NCBI RefSeq assembly: GCF_023707985.1
Contig: NZ_BRCF01000003.1
Span: forward strand, 186,001 to 250,000
Length of the DNA stretch: 64,000 nt
Reading direction: 5' to 3'
From: Sporosarcina sp. NCCP-2716
GTDB taxonomy: Bacteria; Bacillota; Bacilli; Bacillales_A; Planococcaceae
Below the pieces are notes generated by a model. The model did no database searches. It worked only from the letters and a program-made list of their open reading frames with translations, and was not told the origin of the DNA. Made by a program: the position numbers and the translations under genes. Position 1 is the first letter of the stretch; every line of letters begins with the position of its first letter. This document shows, piece after piece, positions 4,931 through 38,233 of the stretch.

Positions 4931-4955
4931 CCGGAGACCTTTCCCTACTGGAATG

Positions 4956-11220: not shown

Positions 11221-11894
11221 TCCGCAGCCTCCTCTTGTTTGTCCGGTTCTCTCAATCCGACCTGGAACGGCGCTCCGGTGATCTCCTGCAATTCATCGAG
11301 AGGAAGATCGGATAATTGTTCGACGAGGTACATCGAGCCTTCTTCAAACCGGAATACTGCATGCTCCGTCACGACTAGATCCGCTTTCCGGATGCCGCTC
11401 GTCGGATAGGTCAGTTCCTCCACCAGTTTCGGTTCTCCGTGTTTCGATGAATGCAGCGTCGCGACGATGATTTTGTTGGCTCCGGCGACGAGATCCATCG
11501 CGCCTCCGACACCGAGGATCGTCGCACCAGGCACTGCCCAGTTCGCAATCTCGCCTGTCCGGTCGACCTGCAGCGCACCGAGCACCGCCACATCGATGTG
11601 ACCGCCGCGGATCATCGCGAACGAAGCCGAGCTGTCGAACAGCGAAGCGCCGGTCTCCATCGTGATCGGATCCTTGCTTGCGCTGATCAGGTCCATGTTC
11701 ACCTGTCCGGGCGGCGGGGTCGGACCCATGCCGAGCAGCCCGTTTTCCGACTGCAGCACGAGTTGTTTATCATCCAGGTAATCCGGGATGAGGGTCGGGA
11801 TCCCTACGCCGAGATTGACGGTCTGTCCGCTTTCGAGCTCCTGGACGATCCGTTTTGCGATCGTGATGCGTCTATTCTCGTTCAACGAACACAC
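11217..11894 (-). CDS. scoB: 3-oxoacid CoA-transferase subunit B
   Basis: 225 residues. Contains [14 protein letters not shown], the catalytic glutamate in [39 protein letters not shown] and [10 protein letters not shown], as in ScoB/AtoA/PcaJ. With subunit A it moves CoA between succinyl-CoA or acetyl-CoA and acetoacetate or another short acid. The start is a GTG at 11894 inside the end of scoA, with AAGGCAGG upstream. The 23-base overlap with scoA is usual for this pair. Confidence 0.92.
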
Positions 11895-12558
11895 CTGCCT
11901 TTTTCACGTAGCGGCTCAGGACGACATAATCGACGTAGACGTGCGGCGTGACGATGTGTGCCGGAGCAAGCTCCCCTGTCCCGACGATTTCATCCACCTC
12001 GGCGATGACGACTTTGCCGGCGGTTGCCATGACAGGATTGAAGTTGCGCCCGGTATGATCGTAGACGAGATTGCCGAGCCGGTCCGCTTTGTGGGCTTTG
12101 ATAAGCGAGACGTCGGCTTTGATCGCTTTTTCGAACAAGTACCGCTCCCCGTCGATCTCCCGTTCCTCTTTCCCATCAGCGAGTTTCGTGCCGGCCGCAG
12201 TCTTCGTATAAAATCCACCGATGCCCGCACCGCCGCAGCGGACAGCTTCCGCGAGCGTCCCCTGAGGCACCAGCTCGATCTCCAGTTCCCCGTCGGCCCA
12301 TGCCTTGACGGCGTCGCGGTTCGTCGTGAAATACGAACCGACCGCTTTTTTCAGTTTCTTGCCTTCCAGCAGGATGCCGAGACCTTTCCCGGGCTCTCCT
12401 AAGTTATTGCTGACGACCGTCAACCCGGTCAGGGACGAAGCCGCCAGCCCATCGATCAGTGTCAGCGGCGTTCCGGACATACCGAATCCTCCGACGAGCA
12501 CCGTATCGCCGTTTTTGATGAATTTCACAAACTCATAGGCGTCCAGCAGTTTCTGCAA
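11872..12558 (-). CDS. scoA: 3-oxoacid CoA-transferase subunit A
   Basis: 228 residues from a TTG at 12558, chosen because AGGAGGGGG sits seven bases before it and family members begin about here. An ATG 36 bases upstream would add 12 residues and has no such site. The family motif NGDTVLVGGFGMSGTPLTLIDGL is at residues 17-38, with NNLGEPGKGLGILLEGKKLKK and FNPVMATAGKVVIAEVDEIV later. It forms the CoA-transferase with scoB. The segment just upstream also separates the ABC transporter genes from the beta-oxidation block. Confidence 0.92.
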   Translation of the reverse strand: MQKLLDAYEFVKFIKNGDTVLVGGFGMSGTPLTLIDGLAASSLTGLTVVSNNLGEPGKGLGILLEGKKLKKAVGSYFTTNRDAVKAWADGELEIELVPQGTLAEAVRCGGAGIGGFYTKTAAGTKLADGKEEREIDGERYLFEKAIKADVSLIKAHKADRLGNLVYDHTGRNFNPVMATAGKVVIAEVDEIVGTGELAPAHIVTPHVYVDYVVLSRYVKKAGVFVERE

Positions 12559-12602
12559 ATGGCCCCCTCCTTCCATACTTCCAGTTCCAGACACTCAGTA
12601 AC

Positions 12603-13352
12603 TCACTTCGTGGATGACAGGAACCGCTTCGTTCTCTCATGCTGGGGATGATCGAAGACCTGTTCAGGTTTCCCCTGCTCGACGATCACTCCGCCATCCA
12701 TGAAGATCACCCGGTCTGCCACATCCTTCGCGAAGCCCATTTCATGGGTGACGATAATCATCGTCATCCCTTCGAGTGCAAGCTCTTTGATCACCTGGAG
12801 GACTTCGCGGACAAGTTCAGGGTCAAGGGCAGAGGTCGGTTCGTCGTAAAGCATGACAGTAGGATCCAGCGATAATGCTCTCGCGATCGCCACGCGCTGC
12901 TGCTGTCCGCCCGACAACTGCGCAGGATAATGGTCTTTGCGATCACCGAGCCCGACTTTCTCCAGCAGGGATCCGGCTGCTTCCCGTGCCTCGGCAGCCG
13001 GAAGGTTCCTGATCGTCAGCGGACCTTCCATCACGTTCTCCAGCGCCGTCTTATGCGGAAAGAGGTTGAATGATTGAAAGACGAAACCGGTTTTCTTCCG
13101 CATTTCCCGTATTTCCTTTTTCTGCTCACGCGTCACCCTGCCATTTATGCGGATGACGTGCGGCCCGATCCGGATGTCCCCTTCGTCAGGGGTCTCGAGG
13201 TTCGTCAGGCAGCGGAGGAATGTCGATTTCCCAGAACCGCTCGGCCCCATGATGACGACCACTTCGCTTTTTTCCACGTCGAGATCGATGCCGCACAATA
13301 CCGGGCTGCTGCCGAACTGCTTCCTTACATTTTTGACTTCAACGATTTTCAT
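12603..13352 (-). CDS. Amino-acid ABC transporter ATP-binding protein
   Basis: 249 residues with Walker [11 protein letters not shown]-loop, signature [15 protein letters not shown], Walker [13 protein letters not shown] and the switch histidine in [17 protein letters not shown]. The HEMGFA sequence and length are those of the polar amino-acid uptake family (GlnQ/TcyC type). It lies 36 bases downstream of the permease gene, and the substrate-binding protein is encoded just beyond the lysine-6-dehydrogenase-like gene, so all three transporter parts are present. Confidence 0.93.
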
Positions 13353-13388
13353 TGGGAAACACCGCCTTCCTAAGTTTTGAAGTAGGTG

Positions 13389-14045
13389 CTACTGGGCCAG
13401 GTGTTTGGACGAATGCCGCTCGAAACGGTCCAGCAGCTGGGTGAAACAAGTGATAAGGATCCAATAGATGGCTGCGGCAATCAGATAGATGGTCAGCGGC
13501 TCGAACGTCTTAGCGATGATCAGGCTGGACATCTGCAGCAATTCCGTGACGGTGATCACCGAGACGAGTGAAGTGTCTTTTATCAATACGATGAATGAGT
13601 TGGACAGTGTCGGGATTGCGATCCGCAAGCTTTGCGGCAGGATGATCCGGCGCATCGCCTGCCCGTACGTCATCCCCATCGAGATCGCTGCTTCCGTCTG
13701 CCCTTTGTCGACCGCGAGGATGGATGCCCGGAACGATTCGGACAAGTAGGCACCTGCATTCAGACTCAGCGCCATGATCCCTGAAGAAATCGGATCGAGG
13801 GAGATGCCGATCTGCGGCAGTCCGTAGTAGATGACGAATATTTGCACGAGCAGCGGTGTCCCCCGTATGACGGAAATATAGACGCTTGCAATCTGATGCA
13901 GCACCGGCAGCCTGCCGATGCGTATCAGCGCTGTGAAAAACCCGATCACAAGCGCGATGATGACGGAGATGCAGCTTAAAAAGAGCGTCATGGCTGAAGC
14001 TTTCAGCAGTGCAGGAACAGAGTCGATGATCATTGTGAATTCCAC
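13389..14045 (-). CDS. Amino-acid ABC transporter permease
   Basis: 218 residues, a full-length His/Gln-type permease with about five membrane segments and the EAA loop EAAISMGMTYGQAMRRIILPQSLRIAIP that docks the ATPase. VIRGTPLLVQIFVIYYGLPQ and LNAGAYLSESFRASI are standard family sequences. The start is a GTG at 14045, with GGGAG seven bases upstream. A single permease gene suggests a homodimeric channel. Confidence 0.93.
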   Translation of the reverse strand: MEFTMIIDSVPALLKASAMTLFLSCISVIIALVIGFFTALIRIGRLPVLHQIASVYISVIRGTPLLVQIFVIYYGLPQIGISLDPISSGIMALSLNAGAYLSESFRASILAVDKGQTEAAISMGMTYGQAMRRIILPQSLRIAIPTLSNSFIVLIKDTSLVSVITVTELLQMSSLIIAKTFEPLTIYLIAAAIYWILITCFTQLLDRFERHSSKHLAQ

Positions 14046-14104
14046 GAGCTCACTCCCTTTCCATCAGGATCAGCAAATTGTACACAACGAAATTCGGATT
14101 ATAT

Positions 14105-15265
14105 TCAGCTGTCGCATTCGGTAGTTGCTGTGTAATTGATGGCAATGCCGAGCTCTCGCAGCTCTTCGAGAAACGGATCGAACCGTTCGCCGGTGATGAG
14201 CGTCTCGATCGGCACGACGCCGGCTGTATCGATCTTTCTCTCCGCAAGCCATTTTGCGGCGAGCGCCGCAGGCAATGCAGTCGTTTTCGCCATCGAAGTG
14301 ATGTTCCGGCGATGGTCGTACAGGTCGACCATTTCCCATGTATGCGTCTGCCTGAGTCCGTCCTTCATTCCGGTCACTTCGACTCTGACGACGGTAATAT
14401 CCTCGGCTGTTCCGCCTTTCAGCTGCGGCTCGAGGATCGCCCCGGCCAGCTGGCGCGGTATAACGGTATCCCCGTTGACACTGACAGGCAGATCATCCAG
14501 GAAGCCGAGCTCACTTAAGACCTTCATCTTGGCCCAGTGTCCCGGATAGCGGACAGTTTTTTCGGTCAAGTTCTTCACTTTGTCCTTCAATGTATACGCA
14601 GTGCTGTGTGAGTCCGTCAAAACGGCCTCACAAGCGCCGACAGGGGAAGGAAATGTTATCGTCTCAAGTTCCGAGAGTGCCGGAAACTCAACGATTTCAT
14701 GGTCCCTTACAGCGACAGCCGGTTTGGTATAAAGGCCTAAAACGCTCTCCAGACGGAACACGACCTGATACCAGAGCGGCGGAAGCGGCTTTTCCGGCAG
14801 TCCGCCGCAGATCATGACGGCATGTTCCGCTTCATCGAGCAGCTCGATCCCCCGGGCGGCCAGGAAGTTGGTAAGTCCAGGAGCGACCCCGCAGCCGGGA
14901 ATAAGCGTCACGCCTGCCGCTTCGGCATCGGAGTGGAGTTCCGCTTTCCCCTTGAAATCCGACCCGACCAAATCCACTAGATGACACCGCGCTGCGATGG
15001 CAGCTTCCATGGCTGTTGCGGTGAGTGAGTGAGGCAGGCATCCTACTGCCACATCCGCCCCCTCGAGAACCGATCTTATGTCCTCTGCCGTAGAAAACAC
15101 TGCAGTTCTTCCGCTCACTTTTGAATTTCCCGCCTTATCCAGGCAGCGTTCTATCATCTCCTGACTAATATCTACCGCTGTCACAGACGTGATGCATTCG
15201 AAATCAGCCAATTCTTTAACAACCGCTGTGCCAATCATGCCAGCACCTAAAACGACAGCCCGCAT
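14105..15265 (-). CDS. Saccharopine dehydrogenase family protein, lysine-6-dehydrogenase-like
   Basis: 386 residues from the ATG at 15265, which has GGGAGAG before it. N-terminal NAD-binding fold MRAVVLGAGMIGTAVVKEL, then GADVAVGCLPHSLTATAMEAAI, HLVDLVGSDF and IPGCGVAPGLTNFLAARG, a core I associate with L-lysine 6-dehydrogenases, followed by the long C-terminal saccharopine-dehydrogenase-type domain. Such enzymes oxidatively deaminate lysine's 6-amino group to give piperideine-6-carboxylate. The gene is embedded inside an amino-acid ABC transporter operon (binding protein upstream, permease downstream), which supports an amino-acid substrate. The substrate itself is inferred; opine or other dehydrogenase roles remain possible. 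Confidence 0.78.
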   Translation of the reverse strand: MRAVVLGAGMIGTAVVKELADFECITSVTAVDISQEMIERCLDKAGNSKVSGRTAVFSTAEDIRSVLEGADVAVGCLPHSLTATAMEAAIAARCHLVDLVGSDFKGKAELHSDAEAAGVTLIPGCGVAPGLTNFLAARGIELLDEAEHAVMICGGLPEKPLPPLWYQVVFRLESVLGLYTKPAVAVRDHEIVEFPALSELETITFPSPVGACEAVLTDSHSTAYTLKDKVKNLTEKTVRYPGHWAKMKVLSELGFLDDLPVSVNGDTVIPRQLAGAILEPQLKGGTAEDITVVRVEVTGMKDGLRQTHTWEMVDLYDHRRNITSMAKTTALPAALAAKWLAERKIDTAGVVPIETLITGERFDPFLEELRELGIAINYTATTECDS

Positions 15266-15345
15266 ACCGTTCTCTCCCATCCGGGGTATAGAGTGAGTGA
15301 CCCGGAGCACCCAGTGCTTTCTGAACGGGATGCCCAGGTCCCTTG

Positions 15346-16170
15346 TTAAAATTCAAGCGGATCCGCACCGAACCATTTTTTATAGATTTCCTTGTACGTA
15401 CCGTCTTCCTTCATATCTGCCAGCGCGTCATTCACTTGTTTCACGAAGTCTTCATTGCCTTTGTTGACCGCCATGCCAATATTGTCTTTGTTCAGAATGT
15501 CGCTGGCGATCTTGATGGGCAGATCATTTTCCTTGATGTTGTAATTCATCAGCAGCTGGTCGTTGATGATCACGTCGAGCCGTTTGTTCGTCAGGTCCTG
15601 GATGTAGTCGCTCACGGCCTTGTAAAGTTTGACGTCCGCCCCTTCGACGGTGTTGGCCACTTCTTCGAAGGTCGTACCGCCGCCCACGCCGACTTTCTTC
15701 CCTTTGATGTCTGCGAGCTCGCGGATGTCATCGGTCTCTTTCCGTGTGATGAGAACCGAACCTGTCACGACATAGGGATCCGTGAAGTCAACGCTTTTCT
15801 TGCGCTCTTCGGTGACGGTCATCTGGCCGATGATGATGTCGAACTTATCCGCCTTCAGACCGCCGATCAGGCCATCCCATTTCGTTGCGATGAATTCCGC
15901 TTCTACGCCGAGCCTTTTCGCGATCTCATTTGAGATATCGACGTCGAATCCGTGGAATTGGTCCTTCTCATCCAGGAAGTTGAACGGCGGATACGTGCCT
16001 TCGAAGGCGACGCGCAGCTTTTTCGATTTCTGTACACGTTCTGCAACACCGGCTTTGGCGGACTCCCCGCCGCCAGCTGATGATGTTCCGTCTTTGCTCT
16101 TCCCGCCGCATCCGACCAATAGGACAGCAGCAGCGGCGGCTATCAATGAAAACCTCAGCAATCTTTTCAA
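15346..16170 (-). CDS. Amino-acid ABC transporter substrate-binding lipoprotein
   Basis: 274 residues. An N-terminal lipoprotein signal ends in a VLLVGCGG lipobox (Cys about residue 21), so the mature protein is tethered outside the membrane. The rest is a family 3 solute-binding protein: LRVAFEGTYPPFNFLDEKDQFHGFDVDISNEIAKRLG, then WDGLIGGLKADKFDIIIGQMTVTEERKKSVDFTDPYV and KVGVGGGTTFEEV. The start is TTG at 16170, with GGGAGGG six bases away. It delivers an amino acid to the permease and ATPase encoded downstream. Confidence 0.92.
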   Translation of the reverse strand: MKRLLRFSLIAAAAAVLLVGCGGKSKDGTSSAGGGESAKAGVAERVQKSKKLRVAFEGTYPPFNFLDEKDQFHGFDVDISNEIAKRLGVEAEFIATKWDGLIGGLKADKFDIIIGQMTVTEERKKSVDFTDPYVVTGSVLITRKETDDIRELADIKGKKVGVGGGTTFEEVANTVEGADVKLYKAVSDYIQDLTNKRLDVIINDQLLMNYNIKENDLPIKIASDILNKDNIGMAVNKGNEDFVKQVNDALADMKEDGTYKEIYKKWFGADPLEF

Positions 16171-16185
16171 TGGAATCCCTCCCTG

Positions 16186-17670
16186 TCAGTCTGTTTTCGG
16201 CAGCGGATCTTCGGTTGTCGCTGTACTCGCATCTGCGTCTTTCTCGGGTTTATCCGGGAACAGCAGACTGAAGACGATACCGAATGCCGCGGCGATGAAG
16301 AATGTCGTGAACCGCGATGTTGCGATGGCATCGAGCGGTGTGGAAATCCAGATGACCGTGCTGACGAAGCCGGAGACGATTGTCGCGATCACGCCGATTC
16401 CGGAGTACCGCTTCCAGATGAACGTCAGGATCACAGCCGGCGACAGCGTACAGCCGACGCCCGCCCACGCCCAGCTCACAACGAGGAAGACGAGCGACTT
16501 GGACGTCAGCGCGATCACGAGTCCGACAATCCCTGCGCCGACGATCGCGAGACGGGAGATCATGACGAGTTTCTTTTCTGTCAGATTAAGGCCCATCGCT
16601 CTCCGGATGATGTCTTCACTGACCGAACTCGTGATGACGAGGAGCTGCGAATCCGCCGTCGAAATGATCGCAGCCAGTATCCCTGCAAGCAGGATGCCGG
16701 CAATCCAAGGCGGCATGAGGTCGAGGATCATGAACGGCAGGATCATTTCGACATCAGCAAACACCTGCCCCTGATAGAGTGTGAGTGCTGTGATCCCGAT
16801 CATGAAAGCGCCGCTGTAGGCGAGCACTGTCCAGCCGATCGCGACGAAGCTTCCTTGTTTCGCTTCCTTTTTACTGCGCAGTGCCATGAAGCGGGCACTG
16901 AGCTGCGGCTGACCTCCGAGGAACCCGAAGAACCAGGCGAAGTTGTTGAACAGCAGCAGTCCGAGTGCAAATCCGATGGCGCCGCCCGTCCATGAATCCA
17001 TGGAAGGACCGGCCGCAGTCAGTGCCGCACTGATAGACAGATCGGCCGCTGAAATGTGCACGAGTGCCACAATCGGAAGGACAACTAGTGTGATGAGCAT
17101 CATGATCGCCTGGATCATATCCGTCCAGACGACTGTCACGAACCCGCCGACGTAGGCAAGGATGACAACGACGAGCACGCTCATCACCGCACCGATATGC
17201 GTCGGAATGTTGAAGACTGCGAACAGCGTCTTCCCGGCTCCTGCAATCTGGGCGCCGAAGTAGAACATCATGAAGCTGAAAATGAGAATGGTAGAAAGCC
17301 AGAGGATCGGTTTGCCGTGGCGGCCGAAACGTGCTGCCAAGTAACCGGGAAGTGTGAGGGCGCCTGTAGCTTCGGCCTCACTCATGAACTTCTTCGCGAG
17401 GAACAGCCAGGAAAAGACGATACCGGATGCGATACCGACTGCCACCCATACGCCGGACAGACCGGTCGCAAAGACAAAGCCGGTGTAACCGAGCAGGAGC
17501 CAGGCAGATTCCCCGGTCGCCCGTTCGGAAAACGCGAGCGCCCAGCCCGGAAGCTGCTTGCCGCCGAGCAGGAAATCGGCGTGGCTTTTGGAACGGCGGC
17601 TGACAAGATAGCCGACAACGAGCATGATCACGAGATACAGGACGAATTCCACCATGATAACCGTATGCAT
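16186..17670 (-). CDS. Sodium:solute symporter, PutP-like
   Basis: 494 residues, about 13 membrane segments. SHADFLLGGKQLPGWALAFSERATGESAWLLLGYTG and the GLSGVWVAVGIASG region resemble the proline/pantothenate symporters (SSS family). The ATG at 17670 has AAGGAG nine bases upstream; an ATG at 17679 touches the ribosome site and is unlikely. It is flanked by an ABC transporter binding protein and an FAD amino-acid oxidase, so the cluster has two independent uptake routes. Proline, another imino acid or a related amine is the plausible cargo. Confidence 0.87.
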   Translation of the reverse strand: MHTVIMVEFVLYLVIMLVVGYLVSRRSKSHADFLLGGKQLPGWALAFSERATGESAWLLLGYTGFVFATGLSGVWVAVGIASGIVFSWLFLAKKFMSEAEATGALTLPGYLAARFGRHGKPILWLSTILIFSFMMFYFGAQIAGAGKTLFAVFNIPTHIGAVMSVLVVVILAYVGGFVTVVWTDMIQAIMMLITLVVLPIVALVHISAADLSISAALTAAGPSMDSWTGGAIGFALGLLLFNNFAWFFGFLGGQPQLSARFMALRSKKEAKQGSFVAIGWTVLAYSGAFMIGITALTLYQGQVFADVEMILPFMILDLMPPWIAGILLAGILAAIISTADSQLLVITSSVSEDIIRRAMGLNLTEKKLVMISRLAIVGAGIVGLVIALTSKSLVFLVVSWAWAGVGCTLSPAVILTFIWKRYSGIGVIATIVSGFVSTVIWISTPLDAIATSRFTTFFIAAAFGIVFSLLFPDKPEKDADASTATTEDPLPKTD

Positions 17671-17718
17671 TTCACTCATCTCCTTCAGTGATCTGATTTG
17701 GTGATGCTCTTACTTCCG

Positions 17719-18879
17719 TTACACGATAGCGTCTTCCAGGACTAAATCATTGTCTGCAAACCGGCTGACACGCAGCGGCGACAAGTCGAGCGTTTCGTAT
17801 TTCCCTTTATAGATCAGCTCCGCAAGTCCGAGCCCGACGCCCGGTGCCTGCTGCATCCCGTGTCCGCTGAAACCGATGGCGACATAGTAACCGCCGCGGA
17901 GCGGATGTTCGCCGATGATGGCGTTCTGGTCCGCGGTATTGTGGTCGTACAGACCTGCCCAGCCGGTCTCCAGTTTCAGCTGTTCGAAGTTCGGCACGCG
18001 GTGTGCGAGGGTCGGCCAGAGGTCCTCGAACGCTGACCGCTTCCAGCTGAAATCGATGCCCGGCTTCACATCATCCGAGAAACCGGCGACCACTTTCTCC
18101 ATTTCATGGCGGAAGTACACGCCGGTCGGATCGATTGTAAGCGGTAACATCTTCTCAAGTTTCTTTGCCGTATCGAAGACATACATCTGCCGTTTCAGCG
18201 GGACGACCGGCAGCGGAACACCGAGCTGTTCGCTTAACGCAGCTCCCCAAGCCCCTGCGCAGTTCACGACGACAGGTGCTGCGTGAACTGAGCCGTCCGC
18301 GAGCTGAACCCCCGTCATCCGGCCGCTTTCCGACAGCAGCTGCACCACTTCGGCGGTCTCGTACACGACACCGAGCCTCTGCGCCTGCCTGCGGTATCCC
18401 TGCATGACCGAATACGGATCGAGGTAGCCGTCCTCCTTGCAGAACAGGCCGCCCGCGAGATCCCCTGTTTCGAGTTCCGGTATGAGTCCCTTCAACTCGC
18501 TTTGCGAAAGGAGTTCCGACGGCACACCGAGCGATTGCTGCAGAGCGAGCTGTTTTTCGTACGCCGGCATCATCCGTTCCGTCGCAAGGAACAGATAGCC
18601 GGGCTGTTTGAAGTCGATCTCCGCTTTCTCTCCATCAAGCGCCATATCTTCTGCGAAAGTTTTATAGATGCCGAGACTATAGCGGCTCAAGGTGATATTG
18701 ACTGCCGTCGAGTACAGCTGGCGGAATCCGCCGGCACTCCTGGCAGTCGATGAATACTCGTACGTCGGGTCTTTTTCGAACACGGTGATCGAGCCGTTGA
18801 AGCCGAGCTTGCGCAGCGAGTAGGCTGTGCTCGATCCCATGACCCCTCCGCCGACGATGATAATGTCTGATTTATTCAC
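17719..18879 (-). CDS. FAD-dependent amino-acid oxidoreductase (DadA/sarcosine-oxidase family)
   Basis: 386 residues. The FAD-binding start is DIIIVGGGVMGSSTAYSLRKLG, with STARSAGGFRQLYST shortly after. The C-terminal region DHNTADQNAIIGEHPLRGGYYVAIGFSGHGMQQAPGVGLGLAEL closes the flavin site. The GTG at 18879 has AAAGGAG eight bases upstream. Family members oxidise secondary or D-amino acids (sarcosine, glycine, pipecolate, D-amino acids). Position next to an ornithine-cyclodeaminase-like imine reductase and a PutP-like symporter favours a cyclic or N-substituted amino acid, which is inference. Confidence 0.87.
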   Translation of the reverse strand: MNKSDIIIVGGGVMGSSTAYSLRKLGFNGSITVFEKDPTYEYSSTARSAGGFRQLYSTAVNITLSRYSLGIYKTFAEDMALDGEKAEIDFKQPGYLFLATERMMPAYEKQLALQQSLGVPSELLSQSELKGLIPELETGDLAGGLFCKEDGYLDPYSVMQGYRRQAQRLGVVYETAEVVQLLSESGRMTGVQLADGSVHAAPVVVNCAGAWGAALSEQLGVPLPVVPLKRQMYVFDTAKKLEKMLPLTIDPTGVYFRHEMEKVVAGFSDDVKPGIDFSWKRSAFEDLWPTLAHRVPNFEQLKLETGWAGLYDHNTADQNAIIGEHPLRGGYYVAIGFSGHGMQQAPGVGLGLAELIYKGKYETLDLSPLRVSRFADNDLVLEDAIV

Positions 18880-29862: not shown

Positions 29863-29897
29863 CAGGCAGAGTCCCAACCGGAACTCTGCCTGTTTTC
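29863..29897 (+). terminator. Terminator after the oligopeptidase gene
   Basis: CAGGCAGAGT (29863-29872) pairs with ACTCTGCCTG (29883-29892), followed by TTTT. It overlaps the end of the converging thrS gene. Confidence 0.8.
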
Positions 29898-31095
29898 ATT
29901 CATCTGCAGCGAGCAGCCTGACCGCGTCCTCTATCGTCATCTGGCCTAGGTCGCCGTCTTGCCGTTTCCGTACAGATAACGTGCGGTCCTTCACTTCCTG
30001 ATCACCGATCACCCACGCAAACGGGACTTTCCGTTTAGCGGAATCCCTCACTCGGTAACCGAATTTCTCTGCACGGTCATCCACTTCCGCGCGGTACCCC
30101 TTCTCCATCAGCAGGCTTTTCAATTCATAGGCGAAGTCGTTATGAACACTTGCAATCGGCAGGATGCGGATCTGCTCCGGAGCGAGCCAAAGCGGCAAGG
30201 CCCCTTCGTAATGCTCAATCAGGATGGCCAAGAACCGCTCGATCGATCCGAAGATCGCACGATGGATAATGATTGGGTGATGCAGTGCGTTGTCTTCCGC
30301 GATGTATTGGCAATTGAATTTTTCCGGCATCTGGAAATCGAGCTGGACCGTTCCGCACTGCCAGCTCCTGCCGAGCGAATCGAGGATATGGAAATCGATC
30401 TTCGGCCCGTAGAATGCACCGTCGCCTTCGTTCACTGTATACGCCATCCCCCGTTGCTGAAGTACTTGTTCGAGCGACTCTTCCGCTCGGTCCCACTTTT
30501 CAATCTGGCCCATGAACTGCTCCGGACGTGTCGATAATTCGACTTCATACTCGAAACCGAAATGGCTGTACATGTCATGGATCAGATCGAGCACATGACC
30601 GATTTCCGAAGCGATCTGGTCTTCCCGGACGAATAAGTGGGCATCGTCTTGTGTGAATGCCCGGACTCTCAGCAATCCGTTCAGTGATCCCGATAACTCA
30701 TGGCGATGTACCAGGCCCAACTCTGCGTATCGGATCGGCAGTTCCCGGTAACTGCGCCGTTTGTGATTAAAGATCAGCATCGCCCCCGGGCAGTTCATCG
30801 GTTTCAGCGCGTATTCCTGATTGTCGACTTGTGAGAAATACATATTTTCGTGGTAATGATCCCAGTGCCCCGATGTCTCCCAAAGTTCCTGCTTCATCAT
30901 GACGGGTGTCTTGATTTCCTGATATCCTGCTTTCCGGTGGGCATCCCGCCAATAGTGTTCGAGCGCATTCCGGACGATCATGCCGTTCGGCAAATAGAAT
31001 GGCATACCCGGTGCTTCGTCGGATGCCATCACCAATTCGAGTTCCTGACTGAGCTGACGGTGATTCTTCACTTCTTCATTTACTTGACTGGACAT
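29896..31095 (-). CDS. thrS: Threonyl-tRNA synthetase, catalytic-core form lacking TGS and editing domains
   Basis: 399 residues from the ATG at 31095, which has GGAGG nine bases upstream. Normal bacterial ThrRS is about 640 residues. This protein starts at the class II catalytic domain (MPFYLPNGMIVRNALEHYWR) and has no room for the TGS or N2 editing domains, because the T-box terminator lies immediately upstream. Zinc and substrate ligands are intact: Cys102 (MNCPGAM), His153 (DDAHLFV) and His278 (IIHRAIFG), with spacings close to those of E. coli 334/385/511. The class II motif 2 arginine lies in RVRAFTQDD, and the anticodon-binding domain (PEQIRILPI onward) is present. It should charge tRNA-Thr but cannot clear seryl-tRNA-Thr by itself. 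It may be a second, inducible copy. Confidence 0.92.
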   Translation of the reverse strand: MSSQVNEEVKNHRQLSQELELVMASDEAPGMPFYLPNGMIVRNALEHYWRDAHRKAGYQEIKTPVMMKQELWETSGHWDHYHENMYFSQVDNQEYALKPMNCPGAMLIFNHKRRSYRELPIRYAELGLVHRHELSGSLNGLLRVRAFTQDDAHLFVREDQIASEIGHVLDLIHDMYSHFGFEYEVELSTRPEQFMGQIEKWDRAEESLEQVLQQRGMAYTVNEGDGAFYGPKIDFHILDSLGRSWQCGTVQLDFQMPEKFNCQYIAEDNALHHPIIIHRAIFGSIERFLAILIEHYEGALPLWLAPEQIRILPIASVHNDFAYELKSLLMEKGYRAEVDDRAEKFGYRVRDSAKRKVPFAWVIGDQEVKDRTLSVRKRQDGDLGQMTIEDAVRLLAADE

Positions 31096-31119
31096 AAGTA
31101 GTCGCCTCCATTTTTTATA

Positions 31120-31370
31120 TAAAAAAACCGCACTCCTCCCCGGAAAGGGACGAATGCGGTCGTGGTACCACCCTAGTTTTACAGACGCCAAAACCAGGCA
31201 TCTGCACTTCATAACGATAACGGTCTCCCGGACAGGGTTTCATGCGGCTGCATGGTTCCCCCTGCCAGCTTCCAGGCGGTAATAAAATTCATAGATCTGC
31301 GGGGCTCTCAGCCAATGGCCCCGTTCTCTGTCCAGATCATTTGAAATAAATCATGTCCTGTTCCAAGCTG
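31120..31370 (-). promoter_or_regulatory. T-box leader, proximal copy (threonine)
   Basis: On the minus strand, the T-box AGGGTGGTACCACG (complement of 31161-31174) is followed by a GC-rich terminator hairpin (ACCGCATTCGT ... AGTGCGGT) and a T run at 31121-31127, directly before thrS. Stem I begins near 31365, with the GGACAGAGA motif. The candidate specifier codon is ACC (31280-31278) followed by G, which would read threonine. Uncharged tRNA-Thr would favour the antiterminator and thrS expression. Confidence 0.92.
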
Positions 31371-31383
31371 TTTTCCTATGCAA

Positions 31384-31640
31384 TTAAAAAAACCGCACTC
31401 CTCCCTGTAAAGGGACGAATGCGGTCGTGGTGCCACCCAAGTTCCGCACGCCGGGATTCCGGCATGCGCTTAGACTGATAACGGTCTCCCGAACGTGATT
31501 TCGTGCATGGCTGCAGTTCCTCACGTTTGCTCAAAGGTGGTAAATCATCCGGTTCCGTGCAGGGTTTTCAGCCGGCGGCCCTGCTCTCTGTCAGCGGAAA
31601 TTCTAAATGATTCATGTCCTTATCCTGGCAGTTTTATAAG
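31384..31640 (-). promoter_or_regulatory. T-box leader, distal copy (threonine)
   Basis: A second complete T-box: minus-strand TGGGTGGCACCACG (complement of 31426-31439), its own terminator and T run near 31386-31392, the same GACAGAGAG stem I motif, and a candidate ACC specifier (31541-31539) followed by A. Aligned with the proximal copy, the ACC and the CCT after it are conserved while flanking bases differ, which supports the specifier assignment. The two must be passed in series before thrS is transcribed. Confidence 0.9.
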
Positions 31641-31708: not shown

Positions 31709-34700
31709 TCATTCATCTTCGAACGTCTTCTGCAATATATAATACGACTGCTTCAAACGCTCTTCGTACTGCGGCTGGTCCCAGTTGTCCCATGTGTACC
31801 GTTTCTGGCTGCCGACTTTCGTGCCATTGCGTTCCGGGAAGCTGTCGAGAACACTGCCATCACGGCCGACGATCAACGCGCCGATACCGATGTCATCGAT
31901 TTTCACGCTGGCCCGGTCACCGTCCTTGGCAAGATTGCCGATGAATTCCTTCTGACTCGGATCCCTCGACTGGATGAGGAGCCACGGGATTCTGAGTTCC
32001 AGCCGGCCGTCACGGATGGCGAAATCGGTCAGGGAATCATAATCATCTGCTTCCGGGTTGCCGTTCCCTTCCTTCAGCTTGCCTGTCTCATAAGATGAAT
32101 ATGGAATCGTCCGGTTTTCATTCGGGATCAGGTATGGTTTGTTCAGCGCATACTCGATCGGGATGAATTTCCCGGAGTCGTTTTTGCGCTCCACGTCTTC
32201 AATGAGCCCCAGTTCCTTCCCGTACAAGTAATGGTAGTAGTCATAATACGGATCGATCAGCAGCCGGGCATCTTTGCCGTCCAGCTTGGCGGTAAACTCG
32301 AGTCCGTCACTGAATTCAGCACCTGTTATGCCGTCGATCGTTGAATTGCCCTGTCCCGGCACCGTGTCGAGCGTGATGACCGGATAAGCGCCGTCCTTCA
32401 AGCCGTCCATGTCGAGCCGGACGTACAGATAGCGTTCGTCGTGGTCGACACACAGTTTGTTCATGTTGCCACTGTCCTTTTCATAGAGCGGTTTAGCTTC
32501 CCAGTCATCCGTCTCGCCATCGACTTTAATTTTAAGACGGTCGAAGCTGAGCAGACCGAACTGCTGCTCATTTGTCTGGGCGTTGGACCAGAACGGTCGG
32601 CGGTTCGGATCATCGTAATCCATCGTGTTCCACGTCCGCTTGAACCATTCATCCTGCCACGTGAACACGAGTCCGCCCATCATCCCTTCGTGCAGGATAT
32701 CTTCGTACAGACGGGTCAGGACGTCACCCTGCTGTTTCTCGGACATGAAGCCCTGGTTCCAGCCGAACGGATTCTCGTGCGTCTTGCCTCGGGAGGCCGG
32801 GATGCCGAACTCCGCGATCAGCACCGGGAGCCGGTGAGCGGCGTGCAGGTCCTTCAGATAAGCGGCGTAGTTGTTCTTATCGCCGCGGAAATCAATGAAT
32901 TCCCGGTATCTCTTTTCATAGTTCAGGAAATCGGGATAGTACGGATACACGTGATACGACGCGAACTGGCCCGCTTTCTCCATCTCCCCTTTGACATAGA
33001 TCTTGTTCGGATCGACCGACACGAGGTCTTTGGAATCCGAAGAGTCTGCCGGGTGATCCAGAAGGTCCGTCGTCACCCAGTTAGTGAAGCTCATCGGACG
33101 GATGGCACGGTAGTTCTCGACTTCGTGCTTTACGAGGTAATCCATCTGTTCAGCGAGCCAATATTCGAACGGCTCCGCCTGTTCCGTCTTGAAATAGGTG
33201 CCGTCATATTCTCCGATGCCGGTATGCTTTTCGTTCGTCCCTTCCACCATTAACGGATACCATTCGACGCCGATCATCCAGGCGCTCACCCACCTCGAAA
33301 TATCCGCGTCGTACACACCGGACGCATGCCCGGGACGCTCCTCCACATCCGCGTTGCCGTGGACAACGTCGACGAGACGGGTCATTTCGTCACGGAAGTC
33401 CTGAAGATTGCCCTTCTCGAAAGCGTCCAGTGATTCCACTAATTTCTCTTCGTTGATCCACACACCATGCATGACATGGATCGGCTGGTCATGTGATTCG
33501 TTGTACGACTTCAGTGCCCGGTAGAATGCTGGCGGATGGAGCGTATAGACACGGATCGTGTTGGCGTTCATATCCCCGATCGCTTCGAACCAGCGGTAAT
33601 ATTCGCCTTCGGTGATGGCCGCTTCACCCGGGAAGACGCCGGGTTTCCCCATACCGATATTGACACCTTTCACGGTGATCGGCTTCCAGTTGCCGTTGTC
33701 GAGCACTTCCATCTTATCGCCCGAGATGCGTGCCTGCAGATCAAGGTCGCCTGCCGGGGCGGCGGCTTCCTGTTTCTCTTCCTGCTTGCCGAAACCGCCA
33801 AGCGCACCGGCCATCATCGGGACATATGCCGACCAGTAGAACGACTGGTCCGAGAAAGCGTACAGCCCTTTGTACAGTTGCGGCAGCCCTTCCATCTGGT
33901 ACACTTTCGGCACGGACGGCACGTCGTTATAATCGCCTGCGAAATAAAGGCTCTCCGCTGCACCTTCGATTTTCTGAACGACGGCGGCAAACTCGGAAGG
34001 GATCCCTTCCTCGGCAAGCAGCCGTCTGCCGTCCTCAGTGAGCGACCAGTCATAGTCGGCCAGCACTTCTGCACCGGGCCGCGGCGTGATGATATCGAAC
34101 CAATACGAATAATCGTGGGATCCTTGCGTTTTCAGACGTCTTTCCCCTTGTTTCGTGAGCGTCATCTGAACACTGCCTTCCTTGACGTGCTTGCCGTCTT
34201 CGAGGACGAGGTACGAACCGTCGAGATCATTGACAAGGAGGAACCCGCCTCCTGAATACATCCATTCCTTGCTGTGCTCATCCACGATCCACTGCGGGAT
34301 TTCCTTGTTTTTATTAACGTCAAGTTCTTCGAAATAGCGTGCCGTCCAGCCCTGCCATTCAACGCCGAGATGCTTCGTCACCTGTTTCCGGACCTCATCG
34401 GTTGTTGGCGAAGCGAACGTATTATACTCGGCAATGAGCAGGGATGGTTCTTTCGCTGAAGTGCGTTTTTCAATGGCATTCCATTCCGCTTCGCTCAGCC
34501 CGCCATAGATTGCCGCGGATCTTGCACCGCTCCGATCGCTATCATCTTTTGACACGTCATCTTCGAACACGCCATATGTGTCGGCGATGTAGATGACATC
34601 GGTTCCTTCATAGCTTTCAGGCAGCGGGCGCACGTCCGGCTTGCCCTTCCCTTTTTCCGGCGGGATAACGCCGTAATAGTCGTGTTTTTCGCGATACGGT

Positions 34701-34894
34701 TTACCGTCAGCCGTCTTCACTTTCAAATAATTGAGCAGCCACGTCATGCCGAGATGCTCCCGGTATGTGTCGTCCGACACCGTCTTGTCGATGACTGCAA
34801 TGGACAGTTCCTTTTCCGGTTTCACCGTCCAAATGACAAATGGCAGCAGAAGAAGGAGCAGCAGTACTGCTGCGATAATATACAATTTTTTCAT
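31709..34894 (-). CDS. Membrane-anchored multidomain glycoside-hydrolase-like protein
   Basis: 1061 residues from the ATG at 34894, which overlaps the glycosyltransferase stop as ATGA and has AAAGGAG upstream. One N-terminal membrane helix (about residues 6-25) places the rest outside the cell. Residues about 30-380 form a region I do not recognise. From about 405, VKGVNIGMGKPGVFPGE and NANTIRVYTLHPPAFYRAL look like the start of a clan-A TIM barrel (GH2/GH5-like). IGVEWYP (about 540) and LIAEFGIPASRG (about 695) are candidate acid/base and nucleophile glutamates. The C-terminal part (about 810 on, VDGETDDWEAKPLYEK, YLYVRLDMDGLKDG) resembles a CBM9/DOMON-type sugar-binding domain. It is the last gene of the exopolysaccharide-like operon and may trim or process the polymer. 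Confidence 0.8.
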   Translation of the reverse strand: MKKLYIIAAVLLLLLLLPFVIWTVKPEKELSIAVIDKTVSDDTYREHLGMTWLLNYLKVKTADGKPYREKHDYYGVIPPEKGKGKPDVRPLPESYEGTDVIYIADTYGVFEDDVSKDDSDRSGARSAAIYGGLSEAEWNAIEKRTSAKEPSLLIAEYNTFASPTTDEVRKQVTKHLGVEWQGWTARYFEELDVNKNKEIPQWIVDEHSKEWMYSGGGFLLVNDLDGSYLVLEDGKHVKEGSVQMTLTKQGERRLKTQGSHDYSYWFDIITPRPGAEVLADYDWSLTEDGRRLLAEEGIPSEFAAVVQKIEGAAESLYFAGDYNDVPSVPKVYQMEGLPQLYKGLYAFSDQSFYWSAYVPMMAGALGGFGKQEEKQEAAAPAGDLDLQARISGDKMEVLDNGNWKPITVKGVNIGMGKPGVFPGEAAITEGEYYRWFEAIGDMNANTIRVYTLHPPAFYRALKSYNESHDQPIHVMHGVWINEEKLVESLDAFEKGNLQDFRDEMTRLVDVVHGNADVEERPGHASGVYDADISRWVSAWMIGVEWYPLMVEGTNEKHTGIGEYDGTYFKTEQAEPFEYWLAEQMDYLVKHEVENYRAIRPMSFTNWVTTDLLDHPADSSDSKDLVSVDPNKIYVKGEMEKAGQFASYHVYPYYPDFLNYEKRYREFIDFRGDKNNYAAYLKDLHAAHRLPVLIAEFGIPASRGKTHENPFGWNQGFMSEKQQGDVLTRLYEDILHEGMMGGLVFTWQDEWFKRTWNTMDYDDPNRRPFWSNAQTNEQQFGLLSFDRLKIKVDGETDDWEAKPLYEKDSGNMNKLCVDHDERYLYVRLDMDGLKDGAYPVITLDTVPGQGNSTIDGITGAEFSDGLEFTAKLDGKDARLLIDPYYDYYHYLYGKELGLIEDVERKNDSGKFIPIEYALNKPYLIPNENRTIPYSSYETGKLKEGNGNPEADDYDSLTDFAIRDGRLELRIPWLLIQSRDPSQKEFIGNLAKDGDRASVKIDDIGIGALIVGRDGSVLDSFPERNGTKVGSQKRYTWDNWDQPQYEERLKQSYYILQKTFEDE

Positions 34895-36315
34895 TTGCCC
34901 GCTCCTTTCGTTCCGGTAGCGCCGACCCGCTCCATATCGCCCCACGAGGAAATGCGGAATAGTGAGCGGATCAGGCCTTCTACACGCCAGATGAGGGTCA
35001 GCGGACGGTACCAGACAACTTCAGTCAGCGTCAGCGCCATCATCCGGAAGACATCGCGGATTTTCGGAAATGTGCCGAGACTCCAGGACTCGAGCAATAC
35101 GGCTCCCATTGAAAACACGGTGCCATACAGGACGAGCAGCAGCATGAGCGCAACCGAGTATTCATAATAGATACCGCCCATGAAGAAAGCAGCGATGACA
35201 TAGACATAACCGGCCAGTTCAATAATGGGTCCGAGACATTCGATCAGCCAGAAGTAAGGGACGGAGATCATGCCGACCGCGCCGTATTTCGGGTTGAACG
35301 CCATCTTCCGGTGCGCCCACAGACTCTCAAGGAGCCCCTGATGCCAGCGGCGGCGCTGTTTGCGGAGCACCGACATCGTCTGCGGAGCTTCTGTCCAGCA
35401 GACGGGGTCCGCTACAAACTCGATACGTCCGCCGAGCTTCTCCTCCTTCAGCAGCCGCTGGAGTTTGACGACCATTTCCATATCTTCGCCGATTGTCGTC
35501 GTGTTGTAACCACCTGCCCGGATGACCGGTTTTTTCGAGAATACGCTGAATGCGCCGGAGATGATAAGGACGAGGTTATATCTGCTCAGGGCAATCCGGC
35601 CCATGAGGAATGCGCGCAAATACTCGACGATCTGCATGACGACGAATGGCCGGCCGGACAGTTTGACGGACGAGACGGCCCCATACTCGACATCCATACC
35701 ATTGACGATACGGACGTTCCCGCCTGCAGCTATCACTTTGCCGTCCGACATGATAATCGGTTTCATGACCCGCAGCAGCGATTTTTCATCCAAAATCGAA
35801 TCCCCGTCGATCGTGCAGAAATACGAGTACTTCGCGAAGTTGATGCCGACATTGAGGGCATCGCCTTTCCCGCCGTTCTCCTTCCGGATGAGCCAGAGAT
35901 TCGGGTGGATCCTCGACCGGTAGATCTCTTTCACTGCTTTTGTTGCAAGCTGCAGATCAGCAGGTTTATCAGCCTTCTCCATATCGAACTGGCTGATGAC
36001 AACATCGGCCGTGCCGTCTTTGGATCCGTCGTCGATGACGAGCAGTTCCGTCTGCGGATAGTCGAGATTGAGCAGGGAGTGGACGGTTGCGATGACGCCG
36101 GTCTCTTCATTGTAAGCCGGCACGAGGATCGAGACAGGTTTTGACAGGAATGCGTCTACAAACCGCTCATCGAGTTCCCTGCGGTCCAGGCTCCTTTCCT
36201 TGCGGAGTGTCCAGAATGCAAGGACGAACATGATCGAGTACGACAAAATGACCGCCGCAATATACACGAAGATGACGACCGTGAATGCCTGCATGGCTAT
36301 ATGGATAATTTTCAT
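34891..36315 (-). CDS. Processive family 2 glycosyltransferase (PgaC/IcaA/BcsA-like)
   Basis: 474 residues. One N-terminal membrane helix (about 12-36), a cytoplasmic GT2 domain and about four C-terminal helices. Active-site elements are intact: ILVPAYNEE, Asp95-Asp96-Gly, Asp170-Gly-Asp172 (TIDGDS), Gly-Glu-Asp278 and the processivity motif Gln320-Arg-Arg-Arg-Trp324. These mark synthases that extend and export beta-linked polymers through the membrane. The ATG overlaps the stop of the HEAT-repeat gene as ATGA, and its own stop overlaps the next start. Which sugar is polymerised is not evident; poly-N-acetylglucosamine- or cellulose-like products are possibilities. Confidence 0.88.
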   Translation of the reverse strand: MKIIHIAMQAFTVVIFVYIAAVILSYSIMFVLAFWTLRKERSLDRRELDERFVDAFLSKPVSILVPAYNEETGVIATVHSLLNLDYPQTELLVIDDGSKDGTADVVISQFDMEKADKPADLQLATKAVKEIYRSRIHPNLWLIRKENGGKGDALNVGINFAKYSYFCTIDGDSILDEKSLLRVMKPIIMSDGKVIAAGGNVRIVNGMDVEYGAVSSVKLSGRPFVVMQIVEYLRAFLMGRIALSRYNLVLIISGAFSVFSKKPVIRAGGYNTTTIGEDMEMVVKLQRLLKEEKLGGRIEFVADPVCWTEAPQTMSVLRKQRRRWHQGLLESLWAHRKMAFNPKYGAVGMISVPYFWLIECLGPIIELAGYVYVIAAFFMGGIYYEYSVALMLLLVLYGTVFSMGAVLLESWSLGTFPKIRDVFRMMALTLTEVVWYRPLTLIWRVEGLIRSLFRISSWGDMERVGATGTKGAGK

Positions 36316-37364
36316 CGGTGATCCCCCCTTTCCCGCTCTGCCTCTTCTGTCTGCGGCGCGGTTTTGGATTCAGCGGCTGCCGCGGACTGGGCCTGCACTG
36401 TTTCTATCGATTCGGCTGGTATTCCGCTATACTGCCTAGCCTCTTCCCGCACGAGGAACATGCTGTCCTCCGTAAAATACGGTAGGAACCGGAGCACTGT
36501 ATCGTGCGGCATCCATTTCAGCATCCTGACAGCCTGGTAGCGTTCCTGCCAGACATCCGACCTGGCAGCCGCTTCGTATAGTTCGGGTGGCGGCACGATG
36601 GCAAGTGAGTTGAACGCACGCAACACGCGGATCCGCAGCTCGCTGTCCGGACTGCTGATCAGCCGCTCCAGCAAGTCTTTTCTCGTGACGTCCGCCTTCA
36701 TCCCGATCACATCGATGAGCGCGTACCGGACGGAAGGTTCCAATTCATCTGCAAGGCGGATCGTCTCTTCAAAAAGCTTATCGGGCATGGTGAAGAGGAG
36801 TTCCTTCGCATTGTTGGAAGAAAGCGAGGCCAGATCCGCCAGATGCTCCTGAAGGAACGTCTCCGGCCTGAATTTCATGGCAATGAGCAGCAGCAAGAAA
36901 GACTCCTCTTCGCTGACACGCCGCTTTGCCATTTTGCGGCATTCCGGAAGAAGACTGTCTACGCCGAAATCATGGATGCGGTACAGCGCATTCATGCGCT
37001 TGCCCCAGTTGCGCCCTCTCAGCTTACGCCGGTAGAATCCGGCAAGGTGGCGGTTTGAGAAACCGCTGATCCTCTCCTCGATGCCGTCTCCCTTGACGTT
37101 ATGGACGAGCGTGCGTAACAGCTCTTCTACGGCTGCTAGTTCAGCTTCATTCTTCGGGATGAGCGTTTCTTCGCTGGTAGTCCCCTTGCGCAGATACTCA
37201 TACCAAGATGTCCGGTTTGTCTCCAAATATGCGGAGGCCTGTAATGCGCGCCGGTTTTCACGATGCCGGGCGATCACCATATAGACACTGAATACGAACA
37301 GAGCGGCAATGAGACCGGCGATCAGGATGGCAATCGACTCAATCGGCACGGCGGTCATGACCAT
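36312..37364 (-). CDS. Membrane-anchored HEAT-repeat protein
   Basis: 350 residues. One N-terminal transmembrane helix (about 7-32, ESIAILIAGLIAALFVFSVYM), a charged linker, then helical repeats from about residue 110 to 320 (RMNALYRIHDFGVDSLLP, SVRYALIDVIGMKADVTRKDLLERL, ELRIRVLRAFNSLAIVPPPELYEAA, WQERYQAVRMLKWMPHDTVLRFL), each two-helix unit fitting the HEAT/armadillo pattern. The C-terminus is polar. No enzyme motif is seen, so it is probably a cytoplasmic-side scaffold for the synthase. The start overlaps the regulator gene: ATG at 37364, or 37358, which would give an ATGA overlap. It ends as ATGA with the glycosyltransferase gene. Confidence 0.82.
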   Translation of the reverse strand: MVMTAVPIESIAILIAGLIAALFVFSVYMVIARHRENRRALQASAYLETNRTSWYEYLRKGTTSEETLIPKNEAELAAVEELLRTLVHNVKGDGIEERISGFSNRHLAGFYRRKLRGRNWGKRMNALYRIHDFGVDSLLPECRKMAKRRVSEEESFLLLLIAMKFRPETFLQEHLADLASLSSNNAKELLFTMPDKLFEETIRLADELEPSVRYALIDVIGMKADVTRKDLLERLISSPDSELRIRVLRAFNSLAIVPPPELYEAAARSDVWQERYQAVRMLKWMPHDTVLRFLPYFTEDSMFLVREEARQYSGIPAESIETVQAQSAAAAESKTAPQTEEAERERGDHR

Positions 37365-38233
37365 AACCCCGCCAAAAGCCGCTGGATCTGCGCTTCAAAA
37401 AGCCTCAGGTTGAACGGTTTCACCAAATAACCGTCCGTTCCGCTTTCATAGGCATAGATCATATCCTCTTCGGAATTACGCCGTGTCATCATGAGTACCG
37501 TGAATTTCTCTTCATTCGGCATCTCCCTCAGCTCATGCAGGACGTCAAGCCCGTTCTTCTTCGGCAGCACATCACTCATGACGACCAGATGAGGATGATA
37601 GGAATCCGTCCATCCAGACCGCATGAGTGCCAGGCCGTCTTCGAACGTACGGATCTGCAGGTCGACACCCGGGACGGTGATCCGTGATATGGACATTTCC
37701 AACAGGTCACGGAACAGGCGGTCCCCGTCCAGGATGCTGACTTTCACTTCCACGACAGGGCGCTCGAGCGGTGATTCAGCCATCGCCACCTGGATGCCAT
37801 ATCGTCCGCCATCCGGATTCCCTTCTTTGTCCATCACCGATCTGCAGATGGCAAGTGCCCGGTCCGCAGTAAGGTCAGGGTGGTAAACTTCGAGGACAGC
37901 TGCCTGGAAGGAACCTTCCGCTGTGTCCGGTGCGAAACACGGACAGCTGTTCTGCACCCGCTTCAAGAACCCGGCCGCTTCTTCCTGGCCGCTGTGAGGC
38001 AGCAGGAGGCCTATCTCTTCGGAGAAATCCGTCTTGAACAGAACATCCTTCTCCCGGACGATCTCTCTCAGTTTCTCGTTCACCTGCAGTGCCACGTCAC
38101 TCCGGCCGGTCTCTTCCCGCAGCAAAACGAGCGACATCGTCCTGCGGTCGCGCAGCACATTCGCTCTCAGTAAGTTGAACACATAGTCGAAAAACCCGCC
38201 TTCCAGCACTTCAGAAAACTCGGTGTCAGCCAT
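37355..38233 (-). CDS. Degenerate GGDEF-like domain fused to a response-regulator receiver domain
   Basis: 292 residues from the ATG at 38233, which has AGGGGGT ten bases upstream; a longer start at 38329 is possible. Residues about 15-155 look like a GGDEF fold in which the signature is lost: KTDFSEEIGLLLPHSG, with SEEI (71-74) where GGDEF would be. Residues about 160-290 are a receiver domain with acidic pocket Asp169/Asp171, phospho-acceptor Asp221 (VVMSDVLP), Thr250 and Lys272 (LVKPF). No DNA-binding output domain is present, so control is probably by protein contact or by nucleotide binding to the degenerate domain. It is the first gene of the four-gene operon. Confidence 0.8.
   Translation of the reverse strand: MADTEFSEVLEGGFFDYVFNLLRANVLRDRRTMSLVLLREETGRSDVALQVNEKLREIVREKDVLFKTDFSEEIGLLLPHSGQEEAAGFLKRVQNSCPCFAPDTAEGSFQAAVLEVYHPDLTADRALAICRSVMDKEGNPDGGRYGIQVAMAESPLERPVVEVKVSILDGDRLFRDLLEMSISRITVPGVDLQIRTFEDGLALMRSGWTDSYHPHLVVMSDVLPKKNGLDVLHELREMPNEEKFTVLMMTRRNSEEDMIYAYESGTDGYLVKPFNLRLFEAQIQRLLAGLWS

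Follow-up and report, generated by a model that had tools for sequence, protein, structure and literature searches.

A four-gene operon on the minus strand of a 64,000-nucleotide stretch of the Sporosarcina sp. NCCP-2716 genome (contig NZ_BRCF01000003.1, positions 186,001 to 250,000; here called the window) probably encodes a synthase-dependent exopolysaccharide machine that is gated by cyclic di-GMP (c-di-GMP). The operon (window positions 38233-31709) consists of four open reading frames (ORFs) in series with overlapping stop and start codons, coding for a protein with a degenerate GGDEF and a pseudo-receiver domain (REG), a HEAT-repeat protein (HEAT), a family 2 glycosyltransferase (GT2), and a large glycoside hydrolase-like protein (GH). 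In the mechanism that we propose, GT2 would polymerize a nucleotide sugar and thread the chain through the membrane, while REG, a former diguanylate cyclase with its product-inhibition site (I-site) kept, would act as the cytoplasmic c-di-GMP receptor. HEAT, itself anchored in the membrane, would hold REG at GT2 and relay the switch through contacts among the three proteins; c-di-GMP would presumably activate rather than inhibit synthesis, and the anchored GH protein may cut or rearrange the emerging chain at the outer face. The gene set and its synteny, the loss of the GGDEF motif and retention of the I-site, the GT2 motifs, the membrane anchors, the GH carboxylates, and the linkage to c-di-GMP genes can be read directly from the sequences.

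REG (38233-37355; 292 amino acids [aa], most likely start) is overlapped by HEAT (37364-36312; 350 aa), which is followed by GT2 (36315-34891; 474 aa) and GH (34894-31709; 1061 aa). The junctions read GGTTATGGTCATGACC (REG/HEAT), CCGATGAAA (HEAT/GT2), and CAAATGAAA (GT2/GH), and an ATGA overlap is possible at all three, for REG/HEAT via the second of two candidate HEAT start codons. An earlier note on this DNA had described a fully overlapping four-gene operon for a degenerate GGDEF/REC protein, a HEAT protein, a GT2 synthase with an intact Q-R-R-R-W motif, and a 1061-residue membrane-anchored GH-like protein; all four ORFs and their overlaps were confirmed. Of 151 genomes from the family, 74 had relatives of GH, as did 80 of 299 drawn from the class (the window's genome is included, and some genomes are in both draws). 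In 40 GH-found neighborhoods, chosen for diversity and not randomly, a HEAT-GT2 pair was present in 32, and 28 of these had a REG no more than three genes away. A scan of named genomes based on the REG alignment yielded 79 loci, nine of which (L169-L177; Bacteroidota or Sphingobacteriaceae) matched only in the receiver and were set aside; the remaining 70 REG-found loci overlap with the GH-found set in some genomes (e.g., L062/L099 and L065/L124). HEAT was adjacent to REG in all 70, and the order REG-HEAT-GT2-GH occurred in 50/70, fused GH proteins being counted only where the GHn profile passed 450 bits, because GH proteins that stand alone are picked up by this profile as well. Among the other 20 are loci at contig ends, loci with split genes, and variants such as GHn-REG-HEAT-GT2; orders seen elsewhere were GH-REG-HEAT-GT2 (L087) and GH-HEAT-GT2-REG (L091 and L093). 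In-frame ATGA or GTGA start-on-stop overlaps recurred in the REG-found relatives at 59/70 (REG/HEAT), 24/64 (HEAT/GT2), and 44/54 (GT2/GH) junctions, so that the coupling exceeds chance. Since synteny is strongly conserved, the possibility raised in the earlier note that the genes are unlinked in relatives does not apply.

These results indicated that REG-HEAT-GT2-GH is a conserved module across many Gram-positive bacteria. Judged by record titles, its hosts include Bhargavaea, Lysinibacillus, Psychrobacillus, Ureibacillus, Cytobacillus, Siminovitchia, Domibacillus, and Paenibacillus, as well as Enterococcus aquimarinus (L154) and metagenome-assembled genomes (MAGs) of Clostridiaceae. Enterococcus is a non-sporulating genus, and its carrying the operon argues against a role in making a coat or adhesion polymer for spores. 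Such a function, in place of one in vegetative biofilms, appears very unlikely to us, even though one report describes a rise in Bacillus subtilis spore adhesion on yda expression (PMC13274460).

The regulatory assignment depends on REG. Pfam recognized its receiver domain clearly (47 bits; cutoff, 30.2), whereas its GGDEF domain scored 12.3 bits (cutoff, 23.8) and is thus degenerate. A longer ORF reaching to 38329 exists (324 aa); the 292-aa form was preferred, since residues 1 to 39 of the longer ORF were modeled at a predicted local distance difference test score (pLDDT) of only ∼40 to 50, and most homologues have ∼270 to 315 aa. A hydropathy scan detected no hydrophobic segment in REG. Both halves were folded in the structural model (mean pLDDT, 87.1). 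Using this model, Foldseek retrieved receivers plus GGDEF-EAL chains that superposed poorly (root mean square deviation, 22); the GGDEF assignment therefore rests on the sequence profile, a 34-sequence alignment of this half that matched the DosC GGDEF structure (E = 1.2e-10) with the RxxD and the downstream third Arg aligned. Among 71 aligned REG sequences, no residue reached more than 20/71 at any of the five columns of the catalytic motif, and the window REG reads DFSEE where GG(D/E)EF belongs, for which reason an active diguanylate cyclase was rejected for this protein. Exactly three of the 146 well-filled columns in the GGDEF half were invariant (71/71): R60 and D63 of the RxxD motif (38045-38056, minus strand) and a third Arg, R92 (37958-37960, minus strand), corresponding to R92, D95, and R124 of the 324-aa ORF. 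The I-site lay outside both patterns used in the scan for REG. Next in conservation is R60 of the 324-aa ORF (70/71), which may match the secondary I-site Arg of PleD. RxxD was likewise present in 11 of the 12 intact GH-found REG proteins of the window's clade (see the tree below), the Asp being absent from L070. The spacing of the triad (+3 and +29) is that of R363, D366, and R395 in Bacillus cereus PelD, which, according to the available passages, are needed both to bind c-di-GMP and to form biofilm (PMC7112168); YdaK is similarly stated to require its I-site Arg (PMC7064775). In having GGDEF homology with a lost catalytic motif and an intact I-site, REG resembles the degenerate receptors of the PelD/YdaK type, and it is predicted to bind c-di-GMP through the retained site.

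Genomic linkage is consistent with this prediction. A same-strand gene of the GGDEF/EAL type was located directly upstream of REG in 17/70 loci, compared to 23/753 other non-operon genes of these same loci (phmmer); in six of the 17, the gene runs into the longest REG ORF. Pfam confirmed 11 of them, the remaining six being assigned by phmmer alone: seven code for PAS-GGDEF or GGDEF proteins (L102, L103, L106, L112, L115, L119, and L123), one for a lone EAL protein (L107), and three for 7TM-GGDEF-EAL proteins (L105, L110, and L111). Because the loci are related, the 17 linkages do not represent 17 independent events. In the window's genome, 15 places match GGDEF and 8 match EAL, and GGDEF proteins occurred in all 18 other host genomes searched (13 with REG-found loci and 5 from other branches, E. 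aquimarinus included). A REG that no longer binds c-di-GMP and acts as a scaffold, its triad stabilizing the fold or taking another ligand, might explain why the operon persists despite loss of RxxD in L070 and in a branch with nucleoside diphosphate (NDP)-sugar dehydrogenase genes. The PelD-like spacing of the only three invariant columns, the adjoining c-di-GMP enzyme genes, and the GGDEF proteins in every host genome searched make this fairly unlikely. Control through a c-di-GMP riboswitch was rejected, with no Rfam match at gathering score in the window or in the 7 of 70 relatives scanned. Elsewhere in the window's genome, contig C4 carries a second candidate for a c-di-GMP-linked synthase (L002, 593-2766) with a yda-like look: a gene for a degenerate GGDEF protein (18.7 bits) with a hydrophobic N-terminal part overlaps a GT2 gene, and a GGDEF-EAL gene lies opposite.

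The earlier note had also suggested that the receiver domain adds phospho-control. In the window REG, this domain (37391-37735, minus strand) has Ser220 (37574-37576) in the phospho-acceptor column and Gly at the second acidic position of the pocket, although Lys304 and Thr282 of the active site (324-aa numbering) are kept; lacking the acceptor Asp, it was rejected as a phosphorylatable receiver. Over the 71 REG sequences, the acceptor column held N in 65, S in 3, and D in 3, a count (68/71 N or S) that is biased because one of the two scan patterns demanded N or S before D. Among the 12 intact REG forms from GH-found loci in that clade, 11 have N and one has D at this position. We then classified the REG form at 92 loci, with REG-found loci taken in only where the adjacent HEAT-GT2 pair was complete. 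Five (L074, L081, L082, L085, and L092) coded for an intact cyclase of REC-GGEEF-REC architecture that keeps RxxD and the phospho-accepting Asp, the domains being confirmed by Pfam for L082 only. All five had same-strand genes for a lone receiver and a histidine kinase within 5 kb of HEAT-GT2. Of the 91 loci without an intact cyclase, in contrast, only 12 had a gene for a kinase longer than 500 aa within 8 kb, and their kinase-core scores were lower (64 to 133 bits versus 245 to 491 bits). Phospho-control is therefore plausible in the relatives that combine the intact architecture with an adjacent kinase. For the window organism, the clear receiver fold with its kept Lys and Thr, together with the kinases beside the intact relatives, might speak for polymer synthesis being controlled by a kinase acting on REG, but given the missing acidic residues and the scarcity of large kinases near such loci, we consider this extremely unlikely. 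Most likely, the pseudo-receiver serves as a fixed docking surface that has lost phosphorylation.

HEAT matched Pfam HEAT_2 (28.4 bits; cutoff, 27.7) and has a single hydrophobic segment near its N terminus (37272-37328, hydropathy scan); only 3 residues were invariant among 68 sequences. The earlier note had suggested that it may stand in for the usual co-polymerase; we favor a role as membrane adaptor between the soluble REG and GT2.

GT2, a membrane protein, matched two Pfam GT2 families (76 and 73.8 bits). Its DGD (35800-35808), GED (35482-35490), and QRRRW (35344-35358, minus strand) motifs align with DGD, GED, and Q-R-x-R-W motifs that were invariant in 63/63 GT2 sequences, as in processive GT2 enzymes. 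PilZ was not matched in GT2 or in the other three operon proteins. The best curated model was PgaC/IcaA (TIGR03937; 125.7 bits; cutoff, 422.3), and the second best was the XrtG-associated GT2 (TIGR03111; 99.4 bits; cutoff, 363.95); CelA/BcsA (TIGR03030) gave 44 bits (cutoff, 699.1). With none of these cutoffs reached and no PilZ match, identities as a poly-N-acetylglucosamine synthase, an XrtG-associated GT2, or a cellulose synthase were each rejected. The second-best match raises the question of whether GT2 could be a glycolipid, wall-polymer, or protein-glycan transferase, as the XrtG-associated enzyme may be, with GH trimming its product, and window GH gave a weak Firmicu-CTERM hit (15.9 bits). 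However, PgaC/IcaA scored best, GED and Q-R-x-R-W are invariant, no exosortase was found among the four operon proteins (the neighbors were not searched for one), and Firmicu-CTERM matched only 1 of 44 GH proteins (E = 0.01) and was rejected. On balance, such a transferase is unlikely, and a polymer synthase is preferred.

Hints on the polymer came from the branch without an I-site, where a gene for an NDP-sugar dehydrogenase follows REG in 5/5 loci and a GlmS gene comes next in 3/5; the L091 dehydrogenase was closer to models of UDP-N-acetylhexosamine than of UDP-glucose dehydrogenases, but under their cutoffs. These genes point to amino-sugar or uronate precursors, and the polymer of that branch may be of this type. 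No such precursor genes were seen beside the window operon. A dehydrogenase gene also lies near the operon in L121, L122, L125 (on the contig of L063), L129, L131, L133, L159, and L168. Downstream of the L063 operon (11654-18043), genes for an NDP-sugar dehydrogenase, a PdaB/NodB-like deacetylase, a NodC-like GT2, and a PgaB-like protein perhaps form a second polymer cluster.

The fourth protein, GH, has one hydrophobic segment near its N terminus (34823-34879, hydropathy scan), which would anchor it, and no Pfam match. It comprises an N module (to about residue 380), a clan-GH-A-like barrel, and a beta-rich C-terminal part. Two carboxylates were invariant in 44/44 aligned GH sequences, E544 in GVEW (33263-33265) and E695 in AEFG (32810-32812, minus strand), and were assigned by motif as the putative active-site pair. 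With the model (mean pLDDT, 84.6), Foldseek ranked GH157 best (E = 6.1e-10; 13% identity), followed by GH2. GH113 was weakly matched in 3/44 GH proteins (E = 0.0046 at best), and sequence searches for a solved relative yielded nothing credible. Stand-alone versions of the N module (∼357 aa) and of the hydrolase module (∼745 aa) exist. In five Sporosarcina loci, the flanks covered show only the N module of GH, as a separate gene directly before REG (L151, L152, and L156) or with one gene in between (L146 and L149), so that this module may have a role of its own.

To place the REG forms in an evolutionary context, we used a HEAT+GT2 tree of 49 rows (32 GH-found pairs, the window, and 16 hand-picked REG-found loci), built by a quick method and rooted at the midpoint. 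The closest row to the window was Sporosarcina obsidiansis L164 (77% over HEAT+GT2). Short, I-site-keeping REG forms were in one 30-row branch (Shimodaira-Hasegawa-like approximate likelihood ratio test support, 99) that also contained L070 and the truncated L084, the latter being excluded from the 12 intact forms of the window's clade. Four of the intact cyclases were just outside this branch; the fifth fell on the other side of the midpoint root, on a long branch whose placement is uncertain, as is that of five long branches in all, L092 included. Half-decayed long forms were found in L071, L073, L095, and L097. As regaining a catalytic site is implausible, the direction was probably from cyclase to receptor, with REG also losing its phospho-relay. 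More broadly, we give even odds to a history in which these operons form a widespread, undescribed class of polymer synthases whose phospho-controlled cyclase became a dead-receiver c-di-GMP receptor, some lineages adding an upstream cyclase or cyclase-phosphodiesterase and the HEAT adaptor coupling either form to GT2. Extant genomes would then carry the REG gene in several states: intact, half-decayed, receptor-like, and I-site-less.

Several observations weigh against the reading as a c-di-GMP-gated machine. The I-site is gone in L090, L091, L093, L094, and L096 of the dehydrogenase branch, as well as in L087, L071, L073, and the intact L070 of the window's own clade, so that gating by c-di-GMP is not universal among operon-bearing relatives. 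A c-di-GMP enzyme gene is not directly upstream of REG in 53/70 loci or in the window. No REG was recognized for 4 of the 32 GH-found HEAT-GT2 pairs, and GH is not constant: HEAT-GT2 was not found in 8/40 GH-found neighborhoods, and some Sporosarcina flanks have only the N module. GT2 scored far under the curated cutoffs of the PgaC, CelA, and XrtG-associated models, so its processivity is judged from motifs, and GH resembles its best fold match only remotely (TM-score, 0.24 normalized to query length and 0.45 to target length). The compact c-di-GMP polymer machine of the earlier note was supported in its main parts, namely, an operon built around GT2 that also codes for a GH-like enzyme and a likely receptor of the nucleotide, while phospho-control by the receiver was not supported for the window REG; the c-di-GMP link became stronger than in that note, through the invariant I-site triad and the enzyme genes next door in 17/70 loci.

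If this reading is correct, a common system would be added to the few known c-di-GMP-controlled Gram-positive polymers (Pel and Yda/Pss), spanning many genera of Bacilli and clostridial MAGs and having unusual parts: a soluble receptor, a HEAT adaptor, and an unclassified GH. It would also offer, at one locus, a natural series from an enzyme that makes a messenger to a sensor of that messenger, in which the order of losses (phospho-site, catalysis, and I-site) becomes readable and testable.

The window's genome is a 3.05-Mb draft in 20 contigs. Upstream of REG, the next gene is a transporter-like ORF, and the promoter scan revealed no consensus promoter before REG, in a region holding fewer sites than shuffles give. 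Downstream of GH, a promoter-like site (31688-31660) is followed by two T-box leaders and a compact threonyl-tRNA synthetase gene, and the operon thus probably ends at GH. The tandem leaders (31150-31635, minus strand) scored 80.7 and 70.1 bits, under the gathering score of 93 (E = 6.6e-18 and 3.5e-15). The synthetase behind them (29896-31212, minus strand) has the class II core and anticodon-binding domains only; a second threonyl-tRNA synthetase-like frame elsewhere in the genome (693 aa) is 42% identical to it. Near the operon of Heyndrickxia sporothermodurans, an azaaromatic (yjdF) riboswitch was found (L119, 7690-7795, minus strand; 94.8 bits). In L068, a locus with no recognized REG, the gene before HEAT (4426-5301; 291 aa) has, by eye, a signal peptide and the look of a TIM barrel.

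Among known systems, PgaCD/IcaAD is the closest by its GT2 model, but the score was far off the cutoff, and no PgaD/IcaD or PgaB/IcaB match was found among the four window proteins. BcsAB likewise has a GT2 with QxxRW and c-di-GMP control (predicted here); however, neither PilZ nor BcsB was matched among the four proteins. The XrtG-associated GT2 gave the second-best score, under its cutoff, and no exosortase was found among the four proteins. Listeria pss is similar to Bacillus yda, whose further parts GH8, YdaL, and YdaN are not among the four window genes, and the Pel glycosyltransferase belongs to another family than GT2. Membership in yda/pss was rejected, as REG has no hydrophobic segment and its partners are HEAT, GT2, and a Pfam-unmatched GH-like protein. 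A Gram-positive GT2 carrying PilZ is described in the available passages of another report and serves as a comparison case (PMC10374906). The earlier note had not recognized the four-part combination, and a limited literature search, by title or start of abstract, likewise yielded no published operon with the same parts or with HEAT, GT2, and GGDEF/receiver genes; the word HEAT is absent from the main-text passages available of a survey of synthase-dependent operons (PMC7112194). In ydaJKLMN, as far as the available text describes it, the degenerate GGDEF receptor YdaK is encoded with a putative synthase and its I-site is needed, but YdaK has four transmembrane segments (PMC7064775), and the system has no HEAT protein and no receiver. 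The Pel operon of B. cereus ATCC 10987 is similar in carrying a degenerate GGDEF protein with the same intact +3/+29 triad; PelD, however, is described there with a transmembrane region and a GAF domain (PMC7112168), whereas REG is soluble, fused to a pseudo-receiver, and partnered by HEAT and GT2.

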